Of a DNA stretch of 33,710 bases, positions 7,797 through 33,474 are shown piece after piece. Both the position numbers and the translations under genes were made by a program. Source of the DNA: a virus. The stretch is from positions 1 to 33,710 of the IMG/VR virus record IMGVR_UViG_3300044489_000211. One strand, 5' to 3'. The notes under the pieces are model-generated. The model was not told the DNA's origin and made no database searches. It was given only the letters and a program-made list of their open reading frames with translations. Every line of letters begins with the position of its first letter. The stretch's first letter is position 1.

Positions 7797-8617
7797 CAGC
7801 CCTGCGTCCAGATAGCGTGCCCGGTGATGTTCCCCGTCGTCGTGGTCGAGGGGATGAACACCAAGAACGGACAGGCGTTGTCGGGAATCGGAACCCTGCC
7901 TCCGGTCAGGACATCGACCGCATTGGGAACGTTGCCTGCCGTCAGCTCGAGCCGCGACAGGATGCGAAACAGGACCGTCTGGATAGAACCGGAGGTCCAG
8001 GTGGCAGAGAGCTTCAGCCCATCCGCCCTTCGGATCCCTACATCGCCCTGCGCCAGCCCCATGATAAAGAACGTCCCCTGGATCGGGCTGGCCGCGGTCG
8101 CGAATATGTTGTTCGAGCTGGCCCCCGTATTCCCGTCCTGGTCGGTGTAGTAGAGCGTGAGCGTAGGGGTCCCGGCGGCCGTCGCCGATGAAATCTCCAC
8201 CGCCGCATAGACGCCAAAACCTGACGCGGAGGCGTAGTTGTCCCGCGCCGGGATTGGGCAGGACCCGGTGAACGTCTGGGACGCGCTGGAGGTCACGTCA
8301 TAGCCGTTGTTGTGCCACAGCCGATCGCAGAGCATGAGCGTCCCAGCAATCAGCGCCTGGCCCTGGAACCTCGCCAGATAGGTGCTTCCGCTTGTCGGGT
8401 TCGTGAAGTCCATTTGACCCGTCCGGCGGATCGCCCCACCCCCGAGGACCTGCTCTCCGACCAGCCCAACCGAGGCGGCCGCCCCCGCAGCGGGGATGCC
8501 AGCCAGGTACCAGAGGGAATGTGCCCTTCCCGCCACTAGTGTTCCCGTGACGGCCTTGGCAATCTCCGCCGGCTGCGTCATGCCGGCGATGGCTTGGTCG
8601 ACAGTCGTGATGGCCAT
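7796..8617 (-). CDS. Putative virion protein, unknown family
   Basis: A 273-residue protein rich in Ala, Gly, Thr and Ser. The N-terminal 20 residues are helical (MAITTVDQAIAGMTQPAEIA); the rest shows strand-loop alternation with a segment near 130-170 (FGVYAAVEISSATAAG, LTLYYTDQDGN) that looks like a jelly-roll or Ig-like sandwich. No enzyme motif is visible. It begins two bases after the stop of the preceding gene and ends in a TGATG overlap with the repeat protein, so it is cotranscribed with tail genes. A decoration or appendage protein is the best guess. Confidence 0.5.
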   Translation of the reverse strand: MAITTVDQAIAGMTQPAEIAKAVTGTLVAGRAHSLWYLAGIPAAGAAASVGLVGEQVLGGGAIRRTGQMDFTNPTSGSTYLARFQGQALIAGTLMLCDRLWHNNGYDVTSSASQTFTGSCPIPARDNYASASGFGVYAAVEISSATAAGTPTLTLYYTDQDGNTGASSNNIFATAASPIQGTFFIMGLAQGDVGIRRADGLKLSATWTSGSIQTVLFRILSRLELTAGNVPNAVDVLTGGRVPIPDNACPFLVFIPSTTTTGNITGHAIWTQG

Positions 8618-18780: not shown

Positions 18781-20400
18781 TCAGCCCCTCCTGAACCGGC
18801 TCTCGCCGCCCGGGCCCCAGGTGGCAGGGCCAGAGTCACCAGGCTTGCCGGGCTCCTTGGGCTCGAGCCAACGACTCGCCTGGGCCAGGACGGCCGGCGG
18901 AACGTTGGCGCCGCCTCCGATGAGAGCCATGACAAAGGCATCCCCGCAGTCGGTCGACCGCCCGATCCGTTCCTGGATGTCGTCCTTGGACTCGATCTGG
19001 ATGCCTTGCGGGGTCGCCTTCCAGCGGGGCGCCACCAGGTCAGCCCGCAGCTCGGGGTCCGGCGGCAGGGCCAGCCGGAGCCCAAACGCTGGGTCCAGGG
19101 CCTCCCGGGCTCGCCACCACAGCTCCGCCCGTAGGTTCCTGAACCGCAGGTTCCCCGATCGGTCAGCAGCCCCGGACGACTCAGCGAAGTTCACAGGCTT
19201 GGCGTCCACCCCGGCCGCCCGCAGGTGGTCATACACCGAACCCCCAACACCGATCACGTCGACGTGAACGGGAATCTGGTAGCCCATCTCCCGAGCGATC
19301 CTGGCCAGGACCGAGGGACCGTCGGGCGTCTCCTTGCCGGGAGTCTTGTTAGGCATCGAGAACCACGGACCTACCCGGGTCATCGCCACCGTCATGTCGT
19401 CACCGCCCCGGGCCACGTCCAGGCCAACGCACAGCAGGGGAGCGCCCGTCGGAGGATCGGACGTCCACCGAGCCATCGCAGCCTCCACCCACTCGGCAGG
19501 GATGACCTGCCAGGGGTCGGCCACCAGCCCGATCGTGAAGTCTCCGTAGAGCAGCTGCGATCGCAGGGGCTCGGGCAGGCCCTGCAGCTGCTGGGGATAG
19601 CCGGTCGTGGCGTAGTAGGGGTTGTCCCAGACGCTGGCCGGAATGAAGGTCCGCGACTTGGGCTCGATGAGCTCGTCCTTCCAGACGAACGCACCGGGCC
19701 CGACCTCCCGCTCGTCCCCGTCGATCCGGGCATACCACCGGAGCTCGCCAGGCTCGGCAGGGTTGGTATGCTGCGGGTCGAGCCAGGCGCCCCACCTCTT
19801 GACCACCCATTGCCCCTCGGCCGTGGTAGGGGGGTTGCCAGTCGCCACCACCCGCGTCCGCTGCCCAGGGATCGGGGTCCGCAGCCAGGCGTTCAGGAAC
19901 ACATACTGCGACTCCAGGAAGTCGCCCACCTCATCGTAGCCCTTCAGGTCATGGGCCCGCCCCTTGTACTTCTGGACGTCCTGGGCATTGTGGACCGCCC
20001 CGAATTCCAGCATGCGGTCGCCTGGAAGGTCGCGCCAGATGTGAAGGTTCTCGTTGAACCGCCCCCGCTCGCCGATGAGCTCGGCCGCCGACGAAATCAG
20101 GTCGCGCAGCTGGGGGAACTCCCGCCGATAGATGATGCTCCGCATGTGGGCCGTGAGAGCCAGGCCCAGCAGGAGCCACGACTTGCCACCGCCGGCCTGA
20201 CCGCCAAAGAACAGCTCGTCAGCCTCGCAATGGAAAGCCCGCTCCTGGGGGGATCCCGGCATCGGTGTCCACATCAGCGTAGCGTCAGCCCTCGCCCGAG
20301 CCAGGCGCCTCAACTTCTCCGCCTTCGCTGACAGATATGCCTGCTCCGGCAAATAGCTCTGTAGCAAGGTCCCTCCCGAGCTCGTCCTTGACGACGTCAT
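18781..20400 (-). CDS. terL: Terminase large subunit
   Basis: A 539-residue DNA-packaging motor with both expected domains. The ATPase part has Walker A GGQAGGGKS (66-74), Walker B LKGYDEVGDF (DE at 156-157) and the coupling motif ATGNPP (186-191). The nuclease part has CVGLDVARGGDD (D328), HVDVIGVG (D381) and STDCGDAFVMAL (D484, D487), the RNase H-like metal site. It translocates DNA into the prohead and cuts the concatemer. The start at 20400 overlaps the small subunit by 116 bases and has only a weak ribosome binding site; a TTG at codon 17 or the ATG at 20274 are alternatives. The downstream small membrane protein follows immediately. Confidence 0.93.
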   Translation of the reverse strand: MTSSRTSSGGTLLQSYLPEQAYLSAKAEKLRRLARARADATLMWTPMPGSPQERAFHCEADELFFGGQAGGGKSWLLLGLALTAHMRSIIYRREFPQLRDLISSAAELIGERGRFNENLHIWRDLPGDRMLEFGAVHNAQDVQKYKGRAHDLKGYDEVGDFLESQYVFLNAWLRTPIPGQRTRVVATGNPPTTAEGQWVVKRWGAWLDPQHTNPAEPGELRWYARIDGDEREVGPGAFVWKDELIEPKSRTFIPASVWDNPYYATTGYPQQLQGLPEPLRSQLLYGDFTIGLVADPWQVIPAEWVEAAMARWTSDPPTGAPLLCVGLDVARGGDDMTVAMTRVGPWFSMPNKTPGKETPDGPSVLARIAREMGYQIPVHVDVIGVGGSVYDHLRAAGVDAKPVNFAESSGAADRSGNLRFRNLRAELWWRAREALDPAFGLRLALPPDPELRADLVAPRWKATPQGIQIESKDDIQERIGRSTDCGDAFVMALIGGGANVPPAVLAQASRWLEPKEPGKPGDSGPATWGPGGESRFRRG

Positions 20401-20749
20401 ACGTCAGGGTCCCCTCTCGAATGAGCGCAATAAGGTCGTCGCGCCACGACTTGAGCACCGTCGGCAGCTTGCCCTCTGTCCTGTCCAGGACCTCCTTCAG
20501 GATCGCCCCGGTTGGCTCGGACATCAGCGACATCCAGAGCCTCAATGCCACCATGCCTTCGATGCAGAGATCGTTCCCGCCGGCCGCCAACTCAGTCGAC
20601 CATGCCTTGCACATCTTGGCCGCCTCGACCGGCGTCATCGCACCGAACTTCCGCAACCAACCCGTGACACGGTTGACGCGCTTGCCAGTCCTGTTCCTTC
20701 GTGGGTCGAAACCGGGCTTGAATGGAACCAGACCAGAACCCCTCGGCAT
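20285..20749 (-). CDS. Terminase small subunit-like protein
   Basis: A 154-residue, helix-rich protein. It begins with a basic, disordered SGLVPFKPGFDPRRNRTGKR segment of the type seen at the start of many phage small terminase proteins (DUF5681-like), followed by helices (MTPVEAAKMCKAWSTELAAGGN, LKEVLDRTEGKLP) and an acidic tail. The small subunit recognises the packaging site and regulates the large subunit. The ATG follows GAGGAG. It opens the packaging-virion operon just downstream of the terminator at 20779. The assignment rests on this N-terminal signature and its place directly upstream of the large subunit. Confidence 0.65.
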   Translation of the reverse strand: MPRGSGLVPFKPGFDPRRNRTGKRVNRVTGWLRKFGAMTPVEAAKMCKAWSTELAAGGNDLCIEGMVALRLWMSLMSEPTGAILKEVLDRTEGKLPTVLKSWRDDLIALIREGTLTYDVVKDELGRDLATELFAGAGISVSEGGEVEAPGSGEG

Positions 20750-20854: not shown

Positions 20855-21835
20855 TTACGCAATGGGGCGACGAGACTCGAAGGTCTCCTTATGCCCACAC
20901 TTGGGGCAGCGCAGGATGAGCCGGCCCCGGACCAGGTCCATCGACACCAGGGGCGTGGCGCACCTCGAGCACTTGACCTTCTTGTGGGACGTCTGAATCT
21001 CCCCGGAGATCGCCGCCAGGTCAGAGTAGACCACCGGACGGCCGGAGTAGTCCCGCTCCCATTGCTCAATCTCGGCCCGGGTGTAGGACGTGTAGGTCCC
21101 GGTCCGCTCCCGCACCGAGCCATTGACGGCCGCCACGTCCTGGTGCCGGTCCAGGAAGTTCACCACCCATTGCAGCGGGGGCTCGTGGGGCTTGGCCCAG
21201 GCATCCCAGACCAGGCGCACCAGCTCCAGGTCCTTCTCGGTGTCCACCTCGAGCCGGTAGGGACGGTAGGACCAATGGGGCAGGTCGACCAGGCCGTAGG
21301 TGAACCGGTCGAGGTGCCGGCGGATCCACATGCCGGGATGCTGCCGCTCCTCGCCAGAGGACAGGCTCGAGGTCCAGCACCATGTCCGGTAGGACCAGGG
21401 GGAAAGCCCGGCGCCGTAGACAGGGTCCGAACCGAACTGCAGGGGCAGCAGGAAGTCCCAGCCGTTGGTCTCGATCGCAGCCGCCGCCTGGTCGATGTGG
21501 TGCCAGTCCACGAAGGGCTGATCACCCAGGGCCCGAAGGACAGGCATCTGACCGTAGCGCCCCACCAGCTTGTCCACCGCCCGGGCCAGCTCCGCCGTGG
21601 TGTCGTCCCCCTGCATCCCACGGGTCGACCATATGCCGAACTCGCTGCAGGCCCGGTCAATCTCCGCGTTCGCAGGATCCCAGGGGGAGGTCACCAGGAC
21701 GTCAGCCACGCACTTGGACTGCTTCAGGCGCCGCACGATGTGGACGAACATGGGTACCCCGGCGATCGGCGCCAGGACCTTGCCGGGCAACCGTTCGGAC
21801 GTCGCCCGGACCCCGAGAACACACAGGACAGGCAT
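20855..21835 (-). CDS. SpsF-like cytidylyltransferase with C-terminal zinc ribbon
   Basis: A 326-residue protein. Residues about 1-240 are a nucleotidyltransferase of the CMP-sugar synthetase/SpsF group: VLGVRATSERLPGKVL (the R-x-x-S-x-R-L-P-G-K nucleotide loop at 10-20), then VLRALGDQPFVDWHHID with the metal-binding acidic residues (GDQP), and a C-terminal VDTEKDLELV. It should activate an acidic sugar with CTP. The last 40 residues hold CSRC (289-292) and CPKC (310-313), a zinc ribbon not usual in this family and of the type found on DNA- or RNA-related proteins. The start overlaps the previous stop as TGATG. It is the last gene of the sugar operon. The sugar substrate cannot be read from sequence. 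Confidence 0.78.
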   Translation of the reverse strand: MPVLCVLGVRATSERLPGKVLAPIAGVPMFVHIVRRLKQSKCVADVLVTSPWDPANAEIDRACSEFGIWSTRGMQGDDTTAELARAVDKLVGRYGQMPVLRALGDQPFVDWHHIDQAAAAIETNGWDFLLPLQFGSDPVYGAGLSPWSYRTWCWTSSLSSGEERQHPGMWIRRHLDRFTYGLVDLPHWSYRPYRLEVDTEKDLELVRLVWDAWAKPHEPPLQWVVNFLDRHQDVAAVNGSVRERTGTYTSYTRAEIEQWERDYSGRPVVYSDLAAISGEIQTSHKKVKCSRCATPLVSMDLVRGRLILRCPKCGHKETFESRRPIA

Positions 21836-22698
21836 CAGGGCCTCCGCACGAACAGGACCAGGTCCCGGGCGCCGTGATTGGCGTACCACAGCATCCGCCG
21901 AGCCAGATCCAGCCTGGACAGGGAACTCTCGGTAGCACGGATGAGCGAATGCAGGTGTCCACCCAGGCCGGGGTGCTTCAGGTAGTCCACCGTGGGCAGG
22001 AACCGGTGCATGGGCGCCGTCCCCAGCACCAGCCCGGGAGCCTCAAAGGCGCAGCGCCGCAGCAGGGCTGTGATGGACTGCAGCGTCCAGTAGTTGACGT
22101 GGGTCGGGTGGACGAAAGGCGGCCCCCCCCTCAGGGGCTCGTTGGGGATCGCCAGCAGCAGGATCCCACCCGGCCGCAGAGCTCCCCAGGCCCGGCGCAG
22201 CAGCGTGACCGGGTCGGGCATGTGCTCCAGGAGCCAGAGCATGGAGATGACATCGAACTCCCGATGGCCCAGGATGAAGTCGTCGATCCCCCGGTGGGCC
22301 AGGATGAGCTGTCCCACCCTCTGCCGGCTCCATTCGAACGTATGGCGACTGGCCTCTACGGAAGGTTCCACCGCCCACGCCTCCCAGCCGGCGCCAGCCA
22401 GGACCGCCGCGAACAGGCCGTGCCCAGAGCCGACGTCTACCACCCGTCGGCGATCGGCGGGGAGGTTGGTCCGCAGGATGGCCTCATAGAGCCCGTAGAC
22501 GTGCCGGCGCCACCCCTCCTCGGCCAGGATGAGCTCGTAGGCCCCGACCTTCTCGTCCTGCCAGAACTTCTTGGCGTAGTAGTCGGCCAGGAGCCCGGGG
22601 TCAGGAACGGGGTCGAGATGGACGAACCGACAATCCCGACAGTAGCGGGCAGTCGCCCCCAACCCCTCCCAGGACAGGCCCTCGATGAATCTATGCAT
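21835..22698 (-). CDS. SAM-dependent methyltransferase (Methyltransf_23-like)
   Basis: A 287-residue class I methyltransferase. VVDVGSGHGLFAAVLAG (86-102) is the SAM-binding motif I; VEPSVEA follows as motif II and the later LWLLEHMPDP and LRPGGILLLAIPN give motifs IV-V. The N-terminus has ARYCRDCRFVHLDPVPDP, a CxxC element common in the Methyltransf_23 subgroup found in capsule and O-antigen clusters. It probably methylates a sugar or sugar nucleotide. It overlaps the gene upstream by eight bases and the cytidylyltransferase by one base. Confidence 0.78.
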   Translation of the reverse strand: MHRFIEGLSWEGLGATARYCRDCRFVHLDPVPDPGLLADYYAKKFWQDEKVGAYELILAEEGWRRHVYGLYEAILRTNLPADRRRVVDVGSGHGLFAAVLAGAGWEAWAVEPSVEASRHTFEWSRQRVGQLILAHRGIDDFILGHREFDVISMLWLLEHMPDPVTLLRRAWGALRPGGILLLAIPNEPLRGGPPFVHPTHVNYWTLQSITALLRRCAFEAPGLVLGTAPMHRFLPTVDYLKHPGLGGHLHSLIRATESSLSRLDLARRMLWYANHGARDLVLFVRRP

Positions 22699-23422
22699 TC
22701 TCCACCGCCTCCCCGTAGATGAGCAGCCGCTGCCTCGGAATACCGGTGTCTGGATGCGGATAGTGGTCCTCGGAGAAGCATGCCCACTTCGATCGGACGA
22801 ACTCCGTCAGGCCATCGAAGTCGACAGGGGCGTGGATCCCCGGGTGGTCGTCGTCCCGGATGAGATTCACGAACACCGCCTCTCCTATCTCCCCAAGTCT
22901 TGTCAGGAGCTCCTCCTGCTCCGGCCTCGAAAGATGCTCGATCACATCAAGACACAGGACGATGTTGTGCCTCGGGATTTGGACCCCCTGACCAAGGATG
23001 TAGACCGGAAGGGGAAGCCTGAGTTGCCGAAGGCGGTAGATGAGCCACATCAGACTTCGTCCAGGGATGTCCGCAAAGGACACCCGATAGCCCAGGAAGT
23101 GAAGCCCAAGCCCGACCTGCCCACCTCCAGCCCCGTAGTCAAGAACCGACGGCCCATAGCGGTCGGCCGTGGAGGCCAGGAGCTTGGACAGATAGGGCCG
23201 ATGAATCCCCTGGATCGCCAGGGCGACGTTCTGGTAGCAGAAGATGTCCGTCGAGGCAGTCCACTCCTCGTCGCTGCCGGAGAAGGAGGCTCGATCTTCA
23301 ATCGCCTTTTGCTCGTCGGACAGGCAGTAGCTTGGCTTGAAGGTTGGGCCAAAGAACGCCTGCAACTCCAGGAACGACTCGTGCATCCAGAACTGGTTCG
23401 ATAGAGCGTCCAGCGTGCTCAT
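22691..23422 (-). CDS. SAM-dependent methyltransferase (UbiG-like)
   Basis: A 243-residue class I methyltransferase with SVLDYGAGGGQVGLGL (92-107) as the SAM site and IVLCLDVIEHLSRPEQEELL as motif IV-V. Its N-terminal 85 residues are helical and aromatic-rich (FWMHESFLELQAFFG). It overlaps the ATP-grasp gene as ATGA. It may modify a hydroxyl or amino group of the sugar made by this module; a peptide or lipid acceptor is an alternative. Confidence 0.7.
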   Translation of the reverse strand: MSTLDALSNQFWMHESFLELQAFFGPTFKPSYCLSDEQKAIEDRASFSGSDEEWTASTDIFCYQNVALAIQGIHRPYLSKLLASTADRYGPSVLDYGAGGGQVGLGLHFLGYRVSFADIPGRSLMWLIYRLRQLRLPLPVYILGQGVQIPRHNIVLCLDVIEHLSRPEQEELLTRLGEIGEAVFVNLIRDDDHPGIHAPVDFDGLTEFVRSKWACFSEDHYPHPDTGIPRQRLLIYGEAVENA

Positions 23423-24486
23423 GCCAGTCTCCTCTCCGCGTCCAGACGGGCAACCGACCGGGACGTCCCGAACCCCAGCACGAAATCTCCGCGTTCAGGA
23501 TGCGACCACGGCCGGTGGGGGAACCGAAACCGCTGGCAGACATGCATCCGCAGGTAGGGCCTTGGCACGACAGGCTTCCTGCCAAGGCATTGGTCGATCG
23601 CAGCCCCGACCAAGTCCACCCCCCAGACGGCCGGCGTCATCAGCGAGCAGAACCCGCCACCAGATAGTCTGGCGGCCACCTCGACAACGTAGGGCCTGCT
23701 GTTGTGCCAGACCAGGTCCCCCTTCAGGATCCCGGTTCTCAGCCCGATCGCTTGGGCAGCCAGGCGCATCGCCTGAATAACCTGCCATTCGAACCCCCCG
23801 TTGTCCGGGTCGCCCAGCTCAGGGCAGGGCATGTCTGACCCGTCCTCGATCACCGCCGGGGCGAACTCCTCCAGCCTCGAGTAGTTGCGCTCGGCGATCG
23901 CCGTGAACAGAACCTCTCCGTTCTGGATGATGCTCTCGGTCGATAGCTGGGTCCCGTCCAGCCACTCTTGCACCATCGCCCGGCCGGTGGGGGAATGCCG
24001 GACGGCCGTCGCCCAAGCCTCCGCGAGCCTGTGGGGCATAACACGCGAAACCCCCCGACCACCCCGCGAGTCCACAGGCTTGACCACCACCCAGCCGGGG
24101 TGAGCCACAGGCCCAGGGAACGTCAGGGGAACGCTGACAAGCTCGCCCAGCACCTCGTTCTGCAGGAGCTTGTCCTGGGACAGCGTCGCCGCGATGGGAT
24201 CCGGGCCGGGAAGGTCGTAGCGCTCGGCCACAGCCGCAGCGACGTGAGGCGCATCCACCCCAGCACATAGGACCCCGTCCGGTTGAGCGCCAATCTCCTG
24301 CAGGGCGTTCAAGGTGGAGGTCACGTCGTAGCAGGAGGCCAGGACGAACTCGCCCAGGGAGGCAGCAGGACAGGACGGATTGAAGTCGACCACGACAGGT
24401 CTCACACCCATCGCCAGGCCCCGAGCCACGATCGGGACGGCGTCTGAACCTCCTCCCAGGAACACAACCTTCGGCCCTCCGATCAT
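23419..24486 (-). CDS. ATP-grasp ligase
   Basis: A 355-residue protein of the ATP-grasp fold. KPVDSRGGRGVS (136-147) is the glycine-rich nucleotide loop of the A domain, with WVVV before it; LKGDLVWHNSRPYVVEVAARLSGGG carries the acidic and Asn/Arg elements of the metal site. These enzymes use ATP to join a carboxylate to an amine or thiol. In a sugar cluster such an enzyme may attach an amino-acid-like or acyl group to an aminosugar, or make a carboxylated precursor. The ATG overlaps the preceding ThDP gene as ATGA, with GGGAGGGAG before it. Confidence 0.7.
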   Translation of the reverse strand: MIGGPKVVFLGGGSDAVPIVARGLAMGVRPVVVDFNPSCPAASLGEFVLASCYDVTSTLNALQEIGAQPDGVLCAGVDAPHVAAAVAERYDLPGPDPIAATLSQDKLLQNEVLGELVSVPLTFPGPVAHPGWVVVKPVDSRGGRGVSRVMPHRLAEAWATAVRHSPTGRAMVQEWLDGTQLSTESIIQNGEVLFTAIAERNYSRLEEFAPAVIEDGSDMPCPELGDPDNGGFEWQVIQAMRLAAQAIGLRTGILKGDLVWHNSRPYVVEVAARLSGGGFCSLMTPAVWGVDLVGAAIDQCLGRKPVVPRPYLRMHVCQRFRFPHRPWSHPERGDFVLGFGTSRSVARLDAERRLA

Positions 24487-25067
24487 GGCAACTCCCTCCC
24501 CATGCATCCGATCCCCCGGGGCTCGGAGGTCATCTTGTCCGGCTGGTGGCCGGACTGCAGGATGGGCCAGACCCCTATGTCAGAACAGACATACCGCCGG
24601 ACCTGAACTCCAGGATCCCAAAGCCAGCCCATGTCCAGATGGGACTCGGGCTTGGAACCCGGTCGACCGCGGGCCCACTCGGTCGCCACGTGGGGGATCC
24701 CGTTGAGCTCCTCGAACTGATGCACGATCCCCGCCACCCCGTTGTCCAGGATGGCAACCTTCACCGGCAGGGAGTAGGCCCGGCAGGTCGTCAGGTGAAT
24801 GCGCTCCATTTCCCAGCAGCCATCCCCGGTGACGACCAGGACGAGCCTCTCAGGGTTCGCCAGCTGGGCCCCGATCGCATAGGGTAGCGCCGAGCCCATC
24901 GTTCCATGCCCGCAGGAGGTCAGGAGCTGGCGCCTGGGATAGTCGAGCGTGAACCCCCGGGCCGCCACGGACTGGTGGGTCCCGACCCCGACACAGACCG
25001 TGACGTGAAAGTCCCGCGTCGCCTCGTTCAGCGCCGCCACCACCTCAGACATCGTGAAGGTGTGCAT
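24483..25067 (-). CDS. ThDP-binding C-terminal domain of split acetolactate-synthase-like enzyme
   Basis: A 194-residue protein equal to the C-terminal domain of the acetolactate synthase family. It carries the thiamin diphosphate motif: VTGDGCWEME (GDG 81-83) and, about 26 residues on, VAILDNG (N109), with TCRAYSLPVKV between, as in acetolactate synthase. CGHGTMGSALPYAIGA precedes it as usual. It is the pyrophosphate-binding half of a ThDP enzyme and is inactive without the N-terminal domain, encoded two genes upstream. The start chosen is ATG at 25067 (GGAG upstream); ATG 25052 overlaps the previous stop by eight bases and is also possible. The terminal residues after MGWLWDP are shorter than in full-length enzymes. 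Confidence 0.75.
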   Translation of the reverse strand: MHTFTMSEVVAALNEATRDFHVTVCVGVGTHQSVAARGFTLDYPRRQLLTSCGHGTMGSALPYAIGAQLANPERLVLVVTGDGCWEMERIHLTTCRAYSLPVKVAILDNGVAGIVHQFEELNGIPHVATEWARGRPGSKPESHLDMGWLWDPGVQVRRYVCSDIGVWPILQSGHQPDKMTSEPRGIGCMGRELP

Positions 25068-25428
25068 GCAGCCACTCCGCAACCGTTTCGCAATGAGCCT
25101 CGACCGCAACGCGGGCAGCCCGGAGCTCGGACAGGTCCGTGTTGACCATGACCACCCACTTGCCGGCCCACAGGTCCGGCGCCGTCCCGGTCTGGCGCAT
25201 GTCCAGCCGGGTCCCCAGGGCGATGATTTCCTCGGCCTCCGCCACCGCCAGGTTCGCTGCACGGTCCCCGGTATGGCCAATCATCCCACGAAACAGGACG
25301 TGGTCGGTGGGCATTATCCCCAGGCCGCCCATGCTGCAGACAACAGGAGTCAGCGTTCGCTCGGCGTAGTCCCGGACCTCTTTCCAGGCCGACAGGGCCC
25401 CCCGGCCGACAATGATGAGCCTCTTCAT
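25045..25428 (-). CDS. Central domain of split acetolactate-synthase-like enzyme
   Basis: A 127-residue protein matching only the middle (TPP_enzyme_M) domain of the acetolactate synthase family: GRGALSAWKEVRDYAERTLTPVV, then GLGIMPTDHVLF, GMIGHTGDRAANLAVAEAE and IIALGTRLDMRQTG, the family's 'GxRLDxRxTG' element. This domain supports the ThDP domains and in some enzymes binds FAD or an ADP-like ligand. As a stand-alone polypeptide it is unusual. The ATG overlaps the stop of the N-terminal domain gene as ATGA. It probably assembles with the proteins encoded before and after it. Confidence 0.7.
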   Translation of the reverse strand: MKRLIIVGRGALSAWKEVRDYAERTLTPVVCSMGGLGIMPTDHVLFRGMIGHTGDRAANLAVAEAEEIIALGTRLDMRQTGTAPDLWAGKWVVMVNTDLSELRAARVAVEAHCETVAEWLHAHLHDV

Positions 25429-25913
25429 AGCAGCAGGTCCGCCGGGATCGAGATGACCCCCGGCCCGCCGGCCAGCAGGGGGATCGCATCCAGGACGGCC
25501 CGCCAGGGGGCGTCGTTGGGCTCCACAGCCACCAGGGATATGGACTGGCACAGCCGGACGGTGGGGGTCCATTGAAAGCCGTCCTGACGCGTTCCACGGC
25601 CCATCTGATCGGTAGCCACCTGCCCACACAGGAACAGGACCTGGTCCCCGTCGTAGTAGGCGTCGGCCAGGGGCGTCAGGGCGTTCGTCACCCCGGGTCC
25701 AGACGTGACCACCACCACCCCCAGCTGACCGGACGCCCGGAAGTAGCCCTGGGCAGCGTGACCCGCAGCCGCCTCGTTCACGCACACGATGAGACGGATC
25801 CCGACATCCCGCATGGCAGCCAGGAGCCTGGACACCGTCCCGCCAGGGAACACGAAGGCCAGCCGGACCCCGGACTCCCACAGCACTTTGGCGATCCGTT
25901 CGGCGCCGCTCAC
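25425..25913 (-). CDS. N-terminal (PYR) domain of split acetolactate-synthase-like enzyme
   Basis: A 162-residue protein equal to the pyrimidine-binding domain of the ThDP family: GVRLAFVFPGG, then the catalytic-glutamate region LIVCVNEAAAGHAAQGYFRASG (E47) and VVVTSGPGVTN (70-77) with LADAYYDGDQVLFLCG, exactly the order in acetolactate synthase. The start is GTG (25913) in a GTGA overlap with the previous stop. In known family members this domain is part of a single chain or is separate in two-subunit enzymes such as sulfopyruvate decarboxylase. Here the enzyme is in three pieces. Confidence 0.72.
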   Translation of the reverse strand: MSGAERIAKVLWESGVRLAFVFPGGTVSRLLAAMRDVGIRLIVCVNEAAAGHAAQGYFRASGQLGVVVVTSGPGVTNALTPLADAYYDGDQVLFLCGQVATDQMGRGTRQDGFQWTPTVRLCQSISLVAVEPNDAPWRAVLDAIPLLAGGPGVISIPADLLL

Positions 25914-26470
25914 AGCTCTGCCTCCCGGATGATTTGGTCGGCAGCCTCGGCCGGCGAAAGGGCCAGTCGTCCGTCCATCGTGTCGCCGGGCAGGAGCCGG
26001 ATCATGTCGGTGTCGACCAAGTCGAACCGGATGAGGTAGACCCTCCAAGATGAATGCTCGGCCAGGGCCCGGGCCGCCTTCTCCAAGGCCGCCTTCGCCA
26101 TCCCGTAGCCCAGGTCGACCGCCCCGGAATTAACCGCCCCGACCGTGGAAATGAACACAACCTTCGACCACCAGCCGAGAAGTTTGCTACCGTGGGCCGC
26201 CAGGAGGGCCACAGGAGCCGCCGCGTGCAGGGAGTAGGATGCCAGCAGGTCCGAGAGCCGCTTGACGCCCCAGGGGGCCACGTCGAGCCGCCCGGCCGAG
26301 AATACCACCAGGTCGTAGGGCTGCTCCTCCAGGAACTCCGGCCAGGCCATCGGGTCGGTGATGTCCACCGCCGAGCCAGTAGAACGGACGTTCCACCCCA
26401 GCGTCCGCAGCCGATCGGACAGGGCCAGGCCGATCCCACGCGTCCCCCCGATCACCAAGGCCCTAGACAT
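25910..26470 (-). CDS. Short-chain dehydrogenase/reductase
   Basis: A 186-residue SDR. MSRALVIGGTRGIG gives the dinucleotide loop GGTRGIG (8-14); VVFSAGRLD stands for the NAG motif; STVGAVN contains the catalytic Ser (S108) and YGMAK the Tyr/Lys pair (Y122, K126). It is shorter than the usual 240-260 residues, having lost most of the C-terminal substrate loop. It would reduce or oxidise a sugar hydroxyl. The ATG overlaps the PseG-like stop by eight bases. PtmA in Campylobacter legionaminic acid clusters is a known SDR in such a setting; orthology is not claimed. Confidence 0.75.
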   Translation of the reverse strand: MSRALVIGGTRGIGLALSDRLRTLGWNVRSTGSAVDITDPMAWPEFLEEQPYDLVVFSAGRLDVAPWGVKRLSDLLASYSLHAAAPVALLAAHGSKLLGWWSKVVFISTVGAVNSGAVDLGYGMAKAALEKAARALAEHSSWRVYLIRFDLVDTDMIRLLPGDTMDGRLALSPAEAADQIIREAEL

Positions 26471-27365
26471 TGAGCACCGCCTTGGCAACCCTTGCAAGCC
26501 CCTTGCCATCGACCAGGTCCTGGCCGGCCTCAGCCAGGACGGCCCGCCGGCGGTCGTCGAGCAGGACGTCCCGCACCACCGGAACCATATCCCTGGAAGG
26601 GCAGTCGGCCAGGATCCCGCAGTCGACCACCACCCCCATCGCGTCCAGCTTGGCAGCCGTCTCCTGGTGGTCGGTCGACCGCGACACCACCACCGGAACG
26701 CAGCCCAGCGACATGGACTCGTAGGTCGACATCCCGAGACTGCCGGCGTGGACCGGCGCCGCCCGCTGCAGCCCGTAGAGCATTTCCCCGGGCTCTGGGA
26801 CGAGGGCGTCAGGGAAAGCCCGCAGCAGGGCAACCTGGTAGGACTCCGGGATCCCGGCGCCGAAGGACACCAGGGGCTCCCGCTCCTTCGCCCCGCCCCG
26901 CCGGCCGTAGGCCGGGCCGAGCATGAGATAGTCAGGCCCCGACAGCGATGGCACCAGGTAGTGGTGCTTCACGTGAAACCCTGTCTGGTAGATGAGCAGA
27001 GAGGCCGCCGCCGCAATCTCCTCGGTGATGCTCCAGCCGGCCCCGACGATCACCACCGATCGCGGGCAGGACCGGAGCCAATCGTCCCTCGGAAACATAA
27101 CGTCCAGCACGAACACGTCCGCTTGGAACCCCGAGGCCTCCACAGGGCTGACGTCCCGCAGGTCGGTCTGCTTCAGGGGGAGCCGGCGCGCCAGGAGCCA
27201 GTCAGGAATGAGCTCCAGCCGCCGAGCATCGAAAGCCACCCCGACCTCGCAGGACTTGGACAGGCAGTTCGCCAGGTGAGAGGACCGGACGATGTGACCC
27301 ATCCCCTCGTTCCCGCCGCCCGAAACGTAGATTAGAACAGATGGTCGACGACGTCCAGAACCCAT
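26463..27365 (-). CDS. PseG-like UDP-sugar hydrolase / GT-B protein
   Basis: A 300-residue protein with GGGNEGMGHIVRSSHLA at residues 16-32, the Gly-x-Gly-His-x-x-Arg signature of PseG/SpsG-type UDP-2,4-diacetamido-trideoxy-sugar hydrolases. The C-terminal half has APVHAGSLGMSTYESMSLGCVPVVV, the GT-B-like donor site with E in YESMSLG. PseG releases the free sugar from UDP in pseudaminic acid synthesis, giving the substrate for a NeuB-like synthase. The ATG at 27365 has GAGGAGG upstream and overlaps the previous gene by 34 bases. Its company (synthase, cytidylyltransferase) supports a nonulosonic acid role. Confidence 0.75.
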   Translation of the reverse strand: MGSGRRRPSVLIYVSGGGNEGMGHIVRSSHLANCLSKSCEVGVAFDARRLELIPDWLLARRLPLKQTDLRDVSPVEASGFQADVFVLDVMFPRDDWLRSCPRSVVIVGAGWSITEEIAAAASLLIYQTGFHVKHHYLVPSLSGPDYLMLGPAYGRRGGAKEREPLVSFGAGIPESYQVALLRAFPDALVPEPGEMLYGLQRAAPVHAGSLGMSTYESMSLGCVPVVVSRSTDHQETAAKLDAMGVVVDCGILADCPSRDMVPVVRDVLLDDRRRAVLAEAGQDLVDGKGLARVAKAVLNV

Positions 27366-28129
27366 TGGGCCTCCTCGGGCATGCACAGCAGACCAGGCAG
27401 CCCGGTGTCAGCGAAGGTCACGAACTGCTCCATCATGCGCTTGTGCATCGGGCTGGGAACGGTCAGGGGGGCAGCGTAGGACGTCGGGCGATCGTAGGGC
27501 TTCCGCCCGGGCCACGACCCCTCGATGACGCTGAAGGGCTTCCCGGCGTTCGTCCACTCCAGGGAAATCCTCGACCGGCCAGCCGGGTGGGCCAGCTCCA
27601 GGTGCAAGCTGTGGTCGGTCGAGGATCCTGCCAGGACCTGCGGGGGCCCGCCCATGATATGACAGGCCAGGTCGATGCTGTGGACACCGGAGGTCAGGAC
27701 GATGCCACCGCCCTTCGACCGATCGAACAGGTGGTCCCCGCCCCGGAACGTCCACAGCGCGTCGACCGCTGTCAGGTGCAGCCTGGCAGGGGCCGGCCGC
27801 AGGAACGGCCCGATCGCCTGGTGGAACCGCCAATTGAAGCCCACCGCCAGCCGGGCGATGTCAGGCCGCCGGCGCCAGGCCGCCCCCGAAAGGGCCGGGG
27901 GCTTCTCCACAAGGACCGCATGGACATCAGACAGCTCCTCGAGCTGCTCGGAATGCATCCAGGCTGGTGTTGCGATCACCACGCGGTCGTCAGGCCGGGG
28001 GTCAAAGCCGGCCTGTCCCCCAACAGGGTCGACCACCAGGGGCTCGATCCCAAGGGCCCGCAGGTTGGCAACGTGAACGTTGCCGATCGCTCCGCAGCCC
28101 CCTAGAACAACCCATCTCGGCGCAGCGAT
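27332..28129 (-). CDS. Gfo/Idh/MocA-type oxidoreductase, possible AUC start
   Basis: A 265-residue oxidoreductase. GGCGAIG (10-16) is the NAD(P)-binding loop, VEKPP (EKP at 75-77) the family's signature and GVHSIDLACHIMGG (H150, D153) the catalytic His/Asp. It would oxidise or reduce a sugar or sugar nucleotide. No ATG, GTG or TTG lies near the expected N-terminus. The best candidate is ATC at 28129, with GGAGGTG ending five bases upstream; a reading to 28486 would lie within the aminotransferase gene and give a Gly/Arg-rich false leader. The start is therefore uncertain. The gene overlaps the aminotransferase by 28 bases. Confidence 0.72.
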   Translation of the reverse strand: MAAPRWVVLGGCGAIGNVHVANLRALGIEPLVVDPVGGQAGFDPRPDDRVVIATPAWMHSEQLEELSDVHAVLVEKPPALSGAAWRRRPDIARLAVGFNWRFHQAIGPFLRPAPARLHLTAVDALWTFRGGDHLFDRSKGGGIVLTSGVHSIDLACHIMGGPPQVLAGSSTDHSLHLELAHPAGRSRISLEWTNAGKPFSVIEGSWPGRKPYDRPTSYAAPLTVPSPMHKRMMEQFVTFADTGLPGLLCMPEEAQWVLDVVDHLF

Positions 28130-29265
28130 TGCACCACCTCCCCGGCGGCCTCCACCGTCAGCTGCAGGTGGGGCTCGTGATGGGCCATGCTCATGTAGTT
28201 CGGGCGGTCCAGGACCACCCCCTTGAGAATCATCCGGCGCGAGAACTCGGCCTTGACCTTCTCGTCCTCGAACACGATCGCCGACCGTGGAGCGTGTCCA
28301 ACGACAGGAACGCCGACCGCCGAGAGCTCCTGCTTGAACCGCTCGCCCAGATCCCACAGGTGGGAGTAGACGTCCCCGTGGTGCCGCTCGAGGTAGGTCA
28401 GAGTCGAGATGACCTCGGCGCAATTGAACGGGTCGCCGTTGTAGGTGTTGGAGTAGAACACCCGATCGGATGCAAGGTCCATCCACTCCGAAGGGCCGAC
28501 CAGGGCGGAGATCCCCCGGCCATTCGACAGGGCCTTGCCGTAGCAGACCATGTCCGGCTTGACACCATAGTGCTCGGGCGCTCCTCCAAGAGCCAGGCGG
28601 AACCCCGTCACGATGTCGTCCAGGATAAACGCAGCCCCCACCTCATCGCAGTAGGCTCGGACGGCCGACAGGTAGTAGACCGCCTTCTCGTCCGTGGATG
28701 GCACCTCCACGATCACGGCCGCCGGCGAATCGTCTGCGCGCAGGACGTCCGCATCGCCGAAAGCCAGGTGGCGGGTATTGGCCTTCGCCGACCACATAAC
28801 CCCGGCATCCTGGGGAGGGGTCGAGAACACAACCGAGGAGCCGTGGTAGCCCACCGACAGGACGTCCGGACGACCGGTCACCGCCCGGGCAACACGTACC
28901 GCCATGTCGCAGGCATCCGAACCGTTGGCAAGCCACCTCACCAGCAGGTCCTGGGTCTTCAGGAACGGGGCCACAATCTCCAGCAGACGGATGGCGGCCT
29001 CGACCTCCAGGGCGGATACTACCGAGCCGGGCCCGAACATCTTGTCCGCCAGCCCGCAGGGGCGGTTGAGGTAACCCAGCACCGGACCGCCCTGGTCAAA
29101 CGTCCAGGTCACCATGTGCTTCAAGCCGTCGGGCGTATCCCAGAGCTCGGTGCAGCCCTGCCGCTCCAGGCACATCGCCCACTCCCAGGGAATGGGGCGC
29201 CGGGCGCGGCTCTGGGTTGAGGCGCCGGCCGCCAACAGCTCACGTGGAAGGTTTCTCGATCGCAT
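28102..29265 (-). CDS. Class III PLP-dependent aminotransferase (glutamate-1-semialdehyde aminomutase-like)
   Basis: A 387-residue PLP enzyme. WLANGSDACDMAVRVARAVTGR (111-132) is the family's N-G-S-[ED]-A...A-R-x-x-T-G-R element, FILDDIVTGFR (213-223) the PLP-binding acidic region (the family norm is DEV; here D-D-I), and MVCYGKALSNGR (K244) holds the Schiff-base lysine. It would transfer an amino group to a keto-sugar or semialdehyde. The start ATG lies 26 bases inside the end of the NeuB-like gene, with AGGAG eight bases upstream. Such aminotransferases occur with SpsF/NeuB-like genes in bacterial surface sugar clusters. The exact substrate is unknown. Confidence 0.8.
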   Translation of the reverse strand: MRSRNLPRELLAAGASTQSRARRPIPWEWAMCLERQGCTELWDTPDGLKHMVTWTFDQGGPVLGYLNRPCGLADKMFGPGSVVSALEVEAAIRLLEIVAPFLKTQDLLVRWLANGSDACDMAVRVARAVTGRPDVLSVGYHGSSVVFSTPPQDAGVMWSAKANTRHLAFGDADVLRADDSPAAVIVEVPSTDEKAVYYLSAVRAYCDEVGAAFILDDIVTGFRLALGGAPEHYGVKPDMVCYGKALSNGRGISALVGPSEWMDLASDRVFYSNTYNGDPFNCAEVISTLTYLERHHGDVYSHLWDLGERFKQELSAVGVPVVGHAPRSAIVFEDEKVKAEFSRRMILKGVVLDRPNYMSMAHHEPHLQLTVEAAGEVVQSLRRDGLF

Positions 29266-29920
29266 CGACCATTCTCCTAAAATCTTCGCATGACAGGGAC
29301 CAGGCGGCCTCCGGGTCCGTGGGGGTGAACATGAGATGTTTCTCGATCACCGTCGCTCCCGCGGCGACGGCCATTAGGACGTCCTGGTAGTGCGGGGTGT
29401 GGGAACTCCAGCCCCAGGACGGCTGGGGCCGGAAGTGTGCGAAGGGGTCGTAGGCCGGCCAGTCCACAACGGGATACTGCGGGATGCAACCCAGGAATGT
29501 CTCGTTCGGTCTGCGATCCCGCCAGGGCTGCACCTTGAGCCCCAGGGGGATGGACGTGAACGTCGGCAGCCCGGTGTCGGCGCAGAGGTCGACCAGGGTG
29601 GTGTTGAACGCCTCGCGTGTGGCAAGCTTCAGGAAATCGACCCCGGCGTCGAGACAGGCGTCAACCGCATGCTCGTCGAACACCGAGGCGCCCACCCATC
29701 CGCCGGCGTTCTCCACCACGTCCACCAGCATGCCCAGCAGGTGTCTCGGAAACGTCACGGCCCGCTTGGCGTCCCGTTCCTGCCTCGGAAAGTGCGAAGG
29801 GGTGAACACCTGAACCTTGACATGGGTCGCGCCAGACGCGACGGCCCGCTCGGCGGCCCAGGCCACCACCTTTCGGTCGAAGGGGGCGATATTCGAACAC
29901 AGGTCAGCGATGAGAATCAT
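29240..29920 (-). CDS. NeuB-like nonulosonate synthase, short form lacking SAF domain
   Basis: A 226-residue TIM-barrel protein of the NeuB/SpsE family, which condenses phosphoenolpyruvate with an aminosugar to make a nine-carbon acid. Visible elements: MILIADLCSN, HVKVQVFT (K35 and Q37 of the KxQ motif), FLKLATREAFNTTLVDL, GWSSHT (170-175) and GATVIEKHLMF (188-198), then SLSCEDFRRMVDAI, the C-terminal end of the barrel. The family is normally about 330-350 residues with a C-terminal antifreeze-like SAF domain, which is missing. The short form may act as a different PEP-condensing or aldolase-like enzyme. The ATG at 29920 has GGAGG upstream. Confidence 0.75.
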   Translation of the reverse strand: MILIADLCSNIAPFDRKVVAWAAERAVASGATHVKVQVFTPSHFPRQERDAKRAVTFPRHLLGMLVDVVENAGGWVGASVFDEHAVDACLDAGVDFLKLATREAFNTTLVDLCADTGLPTFTSIPLGLKVQPWRDRRPNETFLGCIPQYPVVDWPAYDPFAHFRPQPSWGWSSHTPHYQDVLMAVAAGATVIEKHLMFTPTDPEAAWSLSCEDFRRMVDAIEKPST

Positions 29921-31285: not shown

Positions 31286-31575
31286 AGCCGCTTCGCCCTC
31301 CGCATCAATGCCCCGTACTTCCGCTTGCCCAGCCAACCCTTTACCCATTCATGGAACTCCAATGGGTGTCTGTGAAAGAACGAGTGGCAGCCGTAGCACA
31401 GCGCAACCGCATTCTCCGGGTCGTGCCGAGTCTTCTTGATCGACCGGCTGAAGATGTGCGCCGCATGGAGCGCTTGAGACTTCTCGGGATACTGTTTACC
31501 GCACCGCCGGCACGTCCAGCTGTCCCGCGCCCGGATCAGGCTCGAGAACTCGGCGTCAGCCTTATCGCGCCTCAT
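31282..31575 (-). CDS. HNH endonuclease-like protein
   Basis: A 97-residue protein with the zinc-anchored HNH order: CRRC (22-25), LHAAHIFSRS (H37, H40), HDPENAVALCYGCH (N55, C60, C63, H64) and FHRH. It resembles short HNH proteins of the NinG/Rap or restriction type that cut or process DNA. Before terminase in some phages, HNH proteins assist DNA packaging; here it is in the replication block beside the initiator. The ATG overlaps the initiator stop as ATGA; a longer reading to 31635 is inside the initiator gene. Whether it nicks origins, recombination intermediates or foreign DNA cannot be told. Confidence 0.78.
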   Translation of the reverse strand: MRRDKADAEFSSLIRARDSWTCRRCGKQYPEKSQALHAAHIFSRSIKKTRHDPENAVALCYGCHSFFHRHPLEFHEWVKGWLGKRKYGALMRRAKRL

Positions 31576-32237
31576 TGCAGGCTCCCGACACCAACCTTGC
31601 CGCCGGAGGTCCTGACGAAATGCGCGCCCTCGCACCTCATTCCAAGAGCAGCCCGGGAGATCCAGAACCCGCAGATTTCGCAGAGGACCGTGTCGGTCTG
31701 TTTGGGCGGCGAGGAGGCCGCCTTTTGGTTCTCTCCGTCTTGCTTCTCTGAGTCTTGGGTAACTGAGTCTTGGATTCTGTCCGCCTGTCGGACTACTGAC
31801 AGTCCGGACGTCCGGACTACTGGAGTCCGCACGTGCGGACTGCTGGAGTCCACCTGTCGGACTACTGCAGCAACCGGCCCATTCTCCAGTAGTCCGCCTG
31901 TCGGACTACTGGAGGGTGCCTCGTCTTGGGGCGCCACATCTGGCGGTCTTATCAGTCTGTATTGGGTGCTCTGCCCGAACCGCTTGATCCGGACGAGGAA
32001 TCCGCCAACCTCTAGAGCCCGAAGGGCGGCGGCAATCCTCTCACGCCTGAGGCCGGTTCTCTTCTCCATGTCCTCGTAGCCCGGCCAGGCGATGTGTCGG
32101 TCCTTGTTCGTGCGATAGCGCAGGTAGCAGAAGACCGCGAATGCATCCACGCCGAGCTCGGCCATGCGCTCGATCACCAACTCCGGGATCGGAGTGAGAA
32201 ACCCCCATTCGTCCACTAGCCTCTCGAACTCGCTCAT
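31572..32237 (-). CDS. Winged-helix replication initiator-like protein
   Basis: A 221-residue protein. Residues about 30-97 form a winged helix of the HTH_36 type (AVFCYLRYRTNKDRHIAWPGYEDMEKRTGLRRERIAAALRALE...FLVRIKR), common in phage initiators of replication related to lambda O and to DnaD-like proteins. A Ser/Pro/Arg-rich linker (about 100-183) follows, and a C-terminal CEIC...C motif (C186, C189, C202) that may bind zinc. The linker DNA carries palindromic repeats suggestive of an origin. The start ATG (32237) with GGAGG upstream overlaps the previous stop as TGATG. Alternative: a transcription regulator. Confidence 0.68.
   Translation of the reverse strand: MSEFERLVDEWGFLTPIPELVIERMAELGVDAFAVFCYLRYRTNKDRHIAWPGYEDMEKRTGLRRERIAAALRALEVGGFLVRIKRFGQSTQYRLIRPPDVAPQDEAPSSSPTGGLLENGPVAAVVRQVDSSSPHVRTPVVRTSGLSVVRQADRIQDSVTQDSEKQDGENQKAASSPPKQTDTVLCEICGFWISRAALGMRCEGAHFVRTSGGKVGVGSLQ
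31779..31912. repeat. Palindromic iteron-like repeats (putative replication origin)
   Basis: Five units with GTCC...GGAC cores begin (g of GTCC) at 31779, 31802, 31825, 31848 and 31892, so steps are 23, 23, 23 and 44. Units 2 (AGTCCGGACGTCCGGACT, 31801-31818) and 3 (AGTCCGCACGTGCGGACT, 31824-31841) are perfect 18-base palindromes; unit 5 has 11-base perfect arms CCAGTAGTCCG and CGGACTACTGG around CCTGT. Most are followed by ACTG. Since 23 and 44 are not multiples of three, the repeats fall in different frames of the coding sequence, so they are not a protein repeat. AT-richer sequence (31722-31780) adjoins the left side. Confidence 0.72.
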
Positions 32238-32560
32238 CACGCCTCCAGGGGCTCGTCAATCACTTCGGCTACGTCATCTAGTTCATGGTGCGGCCCCTCA
32301 TACTCAAGGCCGTGATTTGCCCCCTCGCATATGCAGTGGCAGAACGTCATTGGGTCCGCCTTCTTGCATCCGACGCTGCACTGCCCACTCTCGCTTTTGG
32401 TATGCTCCTGCTTGGTCAGTTCACAAAGCCATCCATCGAGCAGGATGTAAGCCCTGGTGTGCTGCTTGTTGGCCCACCCGCGGAAGCCATCGTGTGCGCC
32501 GATGAACCCCTCAAGCCGGCGAACCTTGCCGCCGTGGTCCTGCCCAATCCACCTTTCCAT
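32237..32560 (-). CDS. Cys-rich small protein, unknown
   Basis: A 107-residue protein starting at ATG 32560, which overlaps the ParB stop as TGATG; the reading to 32740 is within the ParB gene and is dropped. The C-terminal half has GQCSVGCKK and FCHCICEGANHG, a CxCxC...NHG cluster seen in small phage proteins of unknown function, likely zinc-binding. The first half is basic and aromatic (MERWIGQDHGGKVRRLEGFIGAHDGFRGW). It lies between ParB and the initiator, so it may be part of the replication or maintenance block. Confidence 0.6.
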   Translation of the reverse strand: MERWIGQDHGGKVRRLEGFIGAHDGFRGWANKQHTRAYILLDGWLCELTKQEHTKSESGQCSVGCKKADPMTFCHCICEGANHGLEYEGPHHELDDVAEVIDEPLEA

Positions 32561-33474
32561 CACAACCTGTCGATAACGTTGTCTAGCTGCCTGAGGATGT
32601 TGGCTGTCAACTTGCGAAGGCTCTTGAGCACGATCTTTCCGCCAGCGCGGTCGTCCTGGCTCCGGGCAATGATCGACACCAGCGCGCTGACCGACTTCAG
32701 CCCCTCCTCGGCCAGCACGACGCGCGGGTCCTTGATCCACTGGAACAGGGCGCGGCCCGTGACCTCCCGGGCTGCCGCCTTCGGCTTGGGCTTGTGGGCG
32801 GGCAGGCTGTCGGCCGTGCGCAGGATGGCGTCGGCCCTCTGAGAGAGAACACGCTGGACGGCCTTGTCGCCGCCGTAGTCGTGGGCGCGCTTGACGACCT
32901 CGGCCACTTTGCGGGTCTGACGCGTGGAGAGTTCTTCTTCGGCGGCCTTCTTCAGAACCCTAGCCGCTAGTGCGGCGTCGCCCGCGGTGGCGGCCCTGGC
33001 CTGCCTAACGTGGTCCACGCCGAGTTCTCGCGCGAGAACTTCGGTTGCCTTCTTGATGGGGGCATCGAGCATCGATAAGTAGTCAGAGACTGGCCCCTCG
33101 CCCCAGCCAAGCCGCTTCGCCAGCGCCGCCTGTGTGCAGCCCGTCTCGTCCAAGATGGCCCGCAGCGCCTTGGCGATGTCGATGGCCGCCATGTTCTCGC
33201 GGATGACGTTCTCGATGAGCGCCTGGGTCAGCAATTTGTCGTCCGCCACGTCGGCGACGATGGCCTCGACTTCCTTGAGGCCCGCCGCCTTGGCCGCCAT
33301 CACGCGGCGGTGGCCGTAGACCAGGGTGTAGCCGTGGCCGTTCTTGCGAACCTTGACCGGGCAGACCTGGCCGACTTCCTTCAGGCTCTCAGTCAACTCC
33401 TCCAACTTCTCCGGCGACATCTGTTGCCGGACGCGACGATCCATTCCTCGGATTTCTGTCAGCGCGATCTTCAT
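32560..33474 (-). CDS. ParB-like CTPase / DNA-binding protein
   Basis: A 304-residue protein with the N-terminal ParB/sulfiredoxin-like domain. YGHRRVMAAKAAG (GHRR at 54-57) matches the nucleotide-contacting GERR motif and LIENVIRENM (88-94) the ENLQRE motif that couple CTP binding to DNA-site loading. A helix-turn-helix (CTQAALAKRLGWGEGPVSDYLSML, about 113-136) follows, then a helical, Ala-rich tail. Chromosomal and plasmid ParB proteins spread from parS; phages use relatives for plasmid-like partition or as regulators. No ParA is in the window. The ATG follows GGAGGCGGG. No parS site was recognised. Confidence 0.85.
   Translation of the reverse strand: MKIALTEIRGMDRRVRQQMSPEKLEELTESLKEVGQVCPVKVRKNGHGYTLVYGHRRVMAAKAAGLKEVEAIVADVADDKLLTQALIENVIRENMAAIDIAKALRAILDETGCTQAALAKRLGWGEGPVSDYLSMLDAPIKKATEVLARELGVDHVRQARAATAGDAALAARVLKKAAEEELSTRQTRKVAEVVKRAHDYGGDKAVQRVLSQRADAILRTADSLPAHKPKPKAAAREVTGRALFQWIKDPRVVLAEEGLKSVSALVSIIARSQDDRAGGKIVLKSLRKLTANILRQLDNVIDRL

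Follow-up and report, generated by a model that had tools for sequence, protein, structure and literature searches.

Three consecutive genes in the IMG/VR virus record IMGVR_UViG_3300044489_000211, analyzed here over its whole stretch of 33,710 nucleotides (nt; hereafter the window), encode separately the PYR, central, and PP domains of an acetolactate synthase-like enzyme dependent on thiamine diphosphate (ThDP). We think it probable that the three genes represent a single carboligase or decarboxylase of the acetohydroxyacid synthase (AHAS)/YerE type that is encoded in pieces, and whose chains would reassemble to serve a phage-borne sugar pathway. ThDP enzymes in two pieces and phage enzymes that are split have precedents, and our searches met no case in three pieces.

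Domains, junctions, and conservation of the three genes

The genes lie next to one another on the minus strand in the natural domain order. The PYR-domain gene (25425..25913; 162 amino acids [aa], GTG start) matches TPP_enzyme_N (PF02776, E 5.8e-34), carries the catalytic Glu47, and aligns with acetolactate synthases of the PDB at E values down to 1.5e-21. It is followed by a central-domain gene (25045..25428; 127 aa, ATG start) that matches TPP_enzyme_M (PF00205, E 5e-22), and then by a PP-domain gene (24483..25067; 194 aa, ATG start) that bears the GDG...N motif and matches TPP_enzyme_C (PF02775, E 3.3e-25). All three exceed the curated Pfam cut-offs, which bears out an earlier sequence-only reading that had assigned the domains to separate genes with their key motifs kept. 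That reading had also given the PP product about 190 aa, a figure that holds if the ATG at 25052 is taken as the start (189 aa) but not for the 194-aa product of the first ATG. The PF02775 match covers profile positions 1 to 97 of 151, and about 25 residues are absent inside the last third of the domain.

The short overlaps described earlier are also present. The PYR and central genes share an ATGA, and the central and PP genes overlap by 23 nt, or by 8 nt with the second ATG. The flanking genes are joined in the same manner, with a GTGA between an SDR gene and the PYR gene and an ATGA between the PP gene and an ATP-grasp gene. The reading frame changes between successive pieces, and there are three open reading frames (ORFs) and no single polypeptide of 550 to 600 aa. 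A string resembling a Shine-Dalgarno (SD) sequence, GGAG-TGGCTGC-ATG, places GGAG 7 nt ahead of the first PP ATG. The best NCBIfam match for the PYR and PP products is TIGR00118 (biosynthetic acetolactate synthase, an equivalog with a cut-off of 538 bits). The pieces score 102, 57, and 95 bits on this model, a fused relative (P0001) scores 419 bits, and no ThDP piece reached any NCBIfam cut-off shown in our tables.

A scan of 2.9 million viral contigs yielded one close relative, IMGVR_UViG_3300009285_001776 (L002), a phage whose proteins are 75% (TerL), 74% (TerS), 73% (major capsid protein), 65% (portal), and 52% (NeuB) identical to those of the window. Scans of viral contigs with PP, PYR, ATP-grasp, and aminotransferase pairs returned this contig alone. 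The search of related contigs proposed in the sequence-only reading thereby found the same three-gene split, with identical borders: PYR (7149–7637, 162 aa, 69% identity to the window piece), central (7634–8017, 127 aa, 64% identity, joined by a GTGA overlap), and PP (7995–8537, 180 aa, 73% identity). Glu47 and GDG...N are invariant in L002, and the SD-like string is alike in both phages. Sequencing errors at the stops had been named as a way in which the split might prove false; because L002 has the same three genes with the same borders, this comparison indicates that the split is genuine and not such an error.

We calculated Nei-Gojobori nonsynonymous (dN) and synonymous (dS) divergence between the window and L002, and obtained dN/dS inputs of 0.267/1.12 for PYR, 0.309/1.41 for central, and 0.238/1.32 for PP. 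The resulting ratios of about 0.18 to 0.24 per piece resemble those of four neighboring genes and indicate that all three pieces are under purifying selection, as their neighbors are. These values and the shared borders agree with the earlier claim that the arrangement does not reflect decay of one gene.

Models of the central and PP pieces were made with AlphaFold2 from 10-row alignments. The central piece is predicted with a mean pLDDT of 85.8, and its best Foldseek match is Escherichia coli glyoxylate carboligase (E 6.4e-8), with AHAS also recovered and TMq values of 0.83 to 0.87 in the six best rows. The PP piece has a mean pLDDT of 73.1, with its final strand predicted, and matches AHAS (best E 6e-10).

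Fused and two-piece relatives and the origin of the split

AHAS (IlvB)/YerE-like lyases have the same PYR, central, and PP order and the same motifs as the phage genes, but they are fused, whereas the phage version consists of three genes without linkers. In a genome survey of one phylum, the closest relatives of the central piece were two bacterial loci, L114 and L115, where one 570-aa gene encodes the whole ThDP enzyme. Around this gene, L115 carries SpsF, a class III aminotransferase, a homologue of a window methyltransferase, an SDR gene, ATP-grasp, and NeuB; a further gene was placed in the SpsG position by eye and has no NCBIfam match. In L114, the ThDP gene is accompanied by the methyltransferase, SDR, ATP-grasp, and NeuB genes, with a weak cytidylyltransferase match and no match to the class III aminotransferase. 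The phage pieces are 41 to 45% (PYR), 39 to 42% (central), and 34 to 41% (PP) identical to the L114 and L115 proteins over the parts aligned by tblastn.

When aligned to these fused proteins, the PYR piece ends at 'IPADLLL'/'MPMDVQR', the central piece starts at 'RLIIVGRGAL'/'RPAVLLGKGAL', and the PP piece starts just ahead of 'EVVAAL'/'EALRAV'. Both interdomain linkers, of roughly 40 aa each, are absent from the phage genes. From this alignment, therefore, the cuts are judged to coincide with the domain borders, and the fused counterpart of the enzyme serves a comparable operon in bacteria. Unsplit homologues (L114 and L115) thus exist beside split ones whose pieces are conserved (the window and L002), which is the pattern by which genes in pieces are recognized.

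We also scanned the viral contigs with a four-row PYR alignment and recovered 15 loci, in 12 of which PYR occupies an ORF of its own; the others are the L002 contig, one fused gene (L131), and one gene cut by a contig end (L130). The 12 loci comprise six distinct sequences (L119–L123, with identical PYR; L126–L128, with identical PYR; L124; L125; L129; and L132). Each is a two-piece form in which a PYR gene (169 to 171 aa where complete) is separate from a central+PP gene (373 to 378 aa where complete, about 365 aa in L124); contig ends cut central+PP in L129 and PYR in L132, and L127 ends ahead of PP. The two genes overlap by ATGTATAA in L126, L120, and L129. In two of the six distinct loci, a GIY-YIG plus NUMOD3 endonuclease gene lies exactly between the pieces (L125, 6503–7489; L132, 335–1006; 328 or 223 aa), and ATGTAT occurs near both edges of the L125 endonuclease gene. 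Across eight pairwise comparisons of two-piece PYR and central+PP genes, pN/pS was 0.16 to 0.38. Head genes are found near L120, L124, and L129. The neighbor of the L126 genes is RfbH, above its cut-off (437 versus 423 bits), which fits a branched-sugar step of the YerE type; YerE-like enzymes act in sugar clusters (PMC12247030).

Homologues that are always fused had been put forward as grounds to doubt the split. This does not describe the phages, where L002 is split three ways and six distinct viral loci are split two ways, although it does describe the two bacterial loci that share most of the operon genes and have one fused gene. Other viral ThDP matches are fused (L096/L098, on one contig, and L102) or remnants (L100 and L101). 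In a partial gene of L099 (3659–4951), the end of the central domain and the PP domain run in frame, by eye, into NeuB-like sequence, which could reflect a deletion, a chimera, or a genuine fusion. Separately, one 80-kb viral contig, IMGVR_UViG_3300025030_000076, holds two different two-piece ThDP clusters (L120 and L128). Each cluster has an identical counterpart of about 12 kb in other IMG/VR records, and the contig may therefore consist of two phages joined together.

Trees built from 23 and 15 proteins placed the three-piece pair with the fused L114 and L115 proteins (support 100/99) and the two-piece loci in another clade. Forcing the two- and three-piece forms together cost 14.7 log-likelihood units, with an approximately unbiased (AU) test p of 0.037, a marginal value from a test that was conceived after the first tree and that involves long branches. 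Because the tree parts the two forms in this manner, separate fissions at the PYR/central border are favored, a view that we hold loosely. A single origin, in which a second cut turned the two-piece form into the three-piece one, is rather unlikely on these grounds, even though the PYR/central cut falls at the same place in both forms; it would be compatible with one enzyme encoded in pieces. Tentatively, phages may have cut AHAS/YerE-type enzymes repeatedly at the same borders, yielding two pieces in one instance and, independently, three in another, with homing endonucleases among the agents, in which case the three-chain form could be a minimal linkerless heteromer with the central domain as a separate subunit.

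Assembly of the pieces and competing explanations

The ThDP enzymes are a classic example of domain shuffling. In this superfamily the ThDP site lies between a PYR and a PP domain, and contact between separate chains can therefore create it. Two-subunit ThDP decarboxylases, such as sulfopyruvate decarboxylase ComDE, have PYR and PP on separate chains and so resemble the phage form, from which they are set apart by their lack of a central domain. In split transketolase, PP precedes PYR.

Two kinds of precedent are the basis on which we consider reassembly of the coupled gene products into one enzyme likely. In the split-gene transketolase of Carboxydothermus (ChTK-N/ChTK-C), a ThDP enzyme is made from separate chains with the linker lost, as in the phage pieces, and the two chains are reported to reconstitute an active tetramer without the linker (PMC7661550). 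However, this enzyme is of the transketolase family and has two chains, whereas the phage enzyme would be of the AHAS type with three. Phage genes in pieces are likewise adjacent ORFs (Aeh1 nrdA/mobE, T4 topoisomerase gene 60/mobA, and phage 25 gene 43A/43B); Aeh1 nrdA split by mobE retains function, the phage 25 DNA polymerase is split as 43A/43B, and the pieces reassemble (PMC2988022). Those precedents are nucleotide or DNA enzymes in two parts; the window enzyme would belong to a carbohydrate pathway, is divided in three, and has no endonuclease gene at its own junctions.

By this account, translational coupling would keep the chains at equal levels. The PYR and PP chains would meet at their interface and bind ThDP-Mg, the central chain would dock, and the result would be a heteromeric enzyme, for example with two copies of each chain. 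It would move an activated acyl or aldehyde unit, with a 2-keto acid as the probable donor, in the synthesis of an acidic or branched sugar activated with cytidine monophosphate (CMP), and the phage would use the CMP-sugar product. The split itself would have come about, less surely, by fission at tolerant domain linkers, plausibly aided by homing endonucleases as seen in two of the six two-piece loci.

Several observations weigh against this account. The three-piece form is known from two related phages and hence one lineage. The residue that follows the catalytic Glu is Ala in phage PYR but Gln in the fused relatives, the PP piece is about 25 residues short within its last third relative to those proteins, and its C-terminal 30 residues (165 to 194) are predicted with low confidence (pLDDT below 50). 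Neither the window nor L002 has a homing endonuclease gene at its junctions, and because the two- and three-piece forms stand apart in the tree, an endonuclease origin is conjectural for the window.

The internal shortening of PP, together with a stand-alone central domain that is predicted to fold well alone, could also mean that the pieces act apart, one or two of them in new roles (nucleotide binding or regulation by the central piece, for example) and without ThDP catalysis. We judge this unlikely, given that the three genes are kept together and in order in both three-piece phages, that the catalytic Glu and GDG...N are both kept, and that the complete fused enzyme occurs in bacterial loci whose genes match. 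Programmed frameshifting that fuses the ORFs into one polypeptide is geometrically permitted by overlaps of 4 to 23 nt but is very improbable: no slippery heptamer was seen by eye at the PYR/central ATGA, the SD-like string stands ahead of the PP start, and the endonuclease genes that part the pieces in L125 and L132 are unbridgeable by a frameshift. Although broken acetolactate synthase genes do exist (a frameshifted one in L108 and the viral remnants in L100 and L101), an error in sequencing or assembly, or the decay of a single gene, is barely credible in view of a split that recurs in L002 at 64 to 73% identity with proper starts and overlaps, dN/dS well below 1 for each piece, and the clean absence of both linkers.

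The co-occurrence of the fused enzyme with versions in two and three pieces makes it directly testable which linkers the enzyme requires and how phages divide genes.

Surveys and the sugar-pathway operon

The surveys for further relatives covered samples of genomes and depend on their thresholds, and strict scans could miss distant split forms. Open frames were counted from stop to stop, such that a split piece in GC-rich DNA may look longer than it is (318 aa for the window central gene); fused relatives occupy frames of at least 543 aa. With PF00205 in 10 genomes, all frames listed were at least 547 aa, the one exception (318 aa) lying where a contig begins. A two-row central-piece profile matched 257 of 296 genomes of one phylum, and among the 150 rows listed (counted by eye) eight frames were below 500 aa. 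Six of these were rejected as split pieces, five running into contig ends and one being frameshifted, and the other two were also rejected, each beginning within 12 bases of a contig end. At E 1e-15, matches were found in 2 of 398, 2 of 296, and 1 of 246 genomes, all in frames of 556 to 589 aa. A four-row profile at 1e-24 matched 2 of 98 genomes (the L114 and L115 loci again) and none of 198, where an empty answer alone shows nothing. Within these searches, no stand-alone central ThDP domain was met outside the phages described here. When genome contigs were scanned for a bacterial source with the two PP sequences, 28 pattern matches and no relative emerged, and our literature search, which left most subscription journals outside its coverage, found no three-piece or phage split ThDP enzyme and no phage nonulosonate pathway.

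Among GenBank phages the central piece was unmatched, and the matches obtained were all below 60% identity. Records A11a and phage Y3 were rejected as relatives on account of host DNA (E. coli ilvB; chromosomal genes). Records deposited as phages in GenBank (L003 and L010) include DNA of the host, namely E. coli ilvB and chromosomal housekeeping genes, and metabolic-gene counts from this collection need care.

On its minus strand the window encodes a large terminase, a portal protein, a major head protein, and tail proteins, and the sugar-pathway genes form a run on the same strand upstream of terminase. The run is headed by a NeuB-family synthase gene (29240..29920 from its first ATG; PF03102, E 7.4e-17). 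A C-terminal SAF domain is usual in this family, and none was matched in the window gene, which is short. There follow a class III aminotransferase of the glutamate-1-semialdehyde aminomutase type (28102..29265; NF004856, E 7.4e-40, below its cut-off), a GFO/IDH/MocA-type oxidoreductase (27332..28096; PF22725, E 2.4e-6), an SpsG/PseG-like gene with a weak match (26463..27386; TIGR03590, E 0.005, far below its cut-off; 61% identity with L002), and the SDR gene, whose stop overlaps the PYR start (25910..26470; PF00106/PF01370). Beyond the three ThDP genes lie the ATP-grasp gene (23419..24486; PF02655, E 3.8e-9), with homologues in L002, L114, and L115, and two genes read as methyltransferases. 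One of these (22691..23422) has no Pfam match but has a homologue in the L002 contig, and the other (21835..22698; PF13489, E 6.2e-19) has homologues in L114 and L115. The run closes with an SpsF-like cytidylyltransferase with a Zn-ribbon-like tail (20855..21835; PF02348, E 1.6e-13, subthreshold), next to the large terminase gene and an ORF at the small-terminase position (18781..20749; phrog_979/phrog_2; 20285–20749 without a PHROG match). The SDR and GFO genes, like the NeuB-family gene, look short for their families.

The SpsE/F/G names are those of the Bacillus spore-coat operon. Both a NeuB-family synthase (PF03102) and a cytidylyltransferase (PF02348), the pair by which a nonulosonate (NeuB) pathway is recognized, are present, and the operon resembles a sugar pathway in its gene content. 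No operon protein reaches the cut-off of a named NeuB, PseI, or PseG equivalog in NCBIfam, all being far below. Phages such as these carry a NeuB-type sugar pathway beside their packaging genes.

We also searched the neighbors of related aminotransferase genes at 85 loci (the 80 matches listed, plus 5 plasmid or phage loci). Among the matches listed, split transketolase (TKN+TKC) was present in 45 of the 85, 43 of these also having NeuB, and the phage ThDP pieces matched two (L003 and L080). A two-gene transketolase in the same slot supports, by analogy, a carbon-transfer role for the ThDP enzyme in NeuB cassettes. The bacterial cassette SpsF, transketolase N, transketolase C, class III aminotransferase, SDR, and NeuB is widespread (e.g., L007, 10029–13251). 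Finally, ParB-like and replication-initiation-like genes lie near the end of the record (32560–33474 and 31572–32240) and perhaps suggest a plasmid-like prophage stage.

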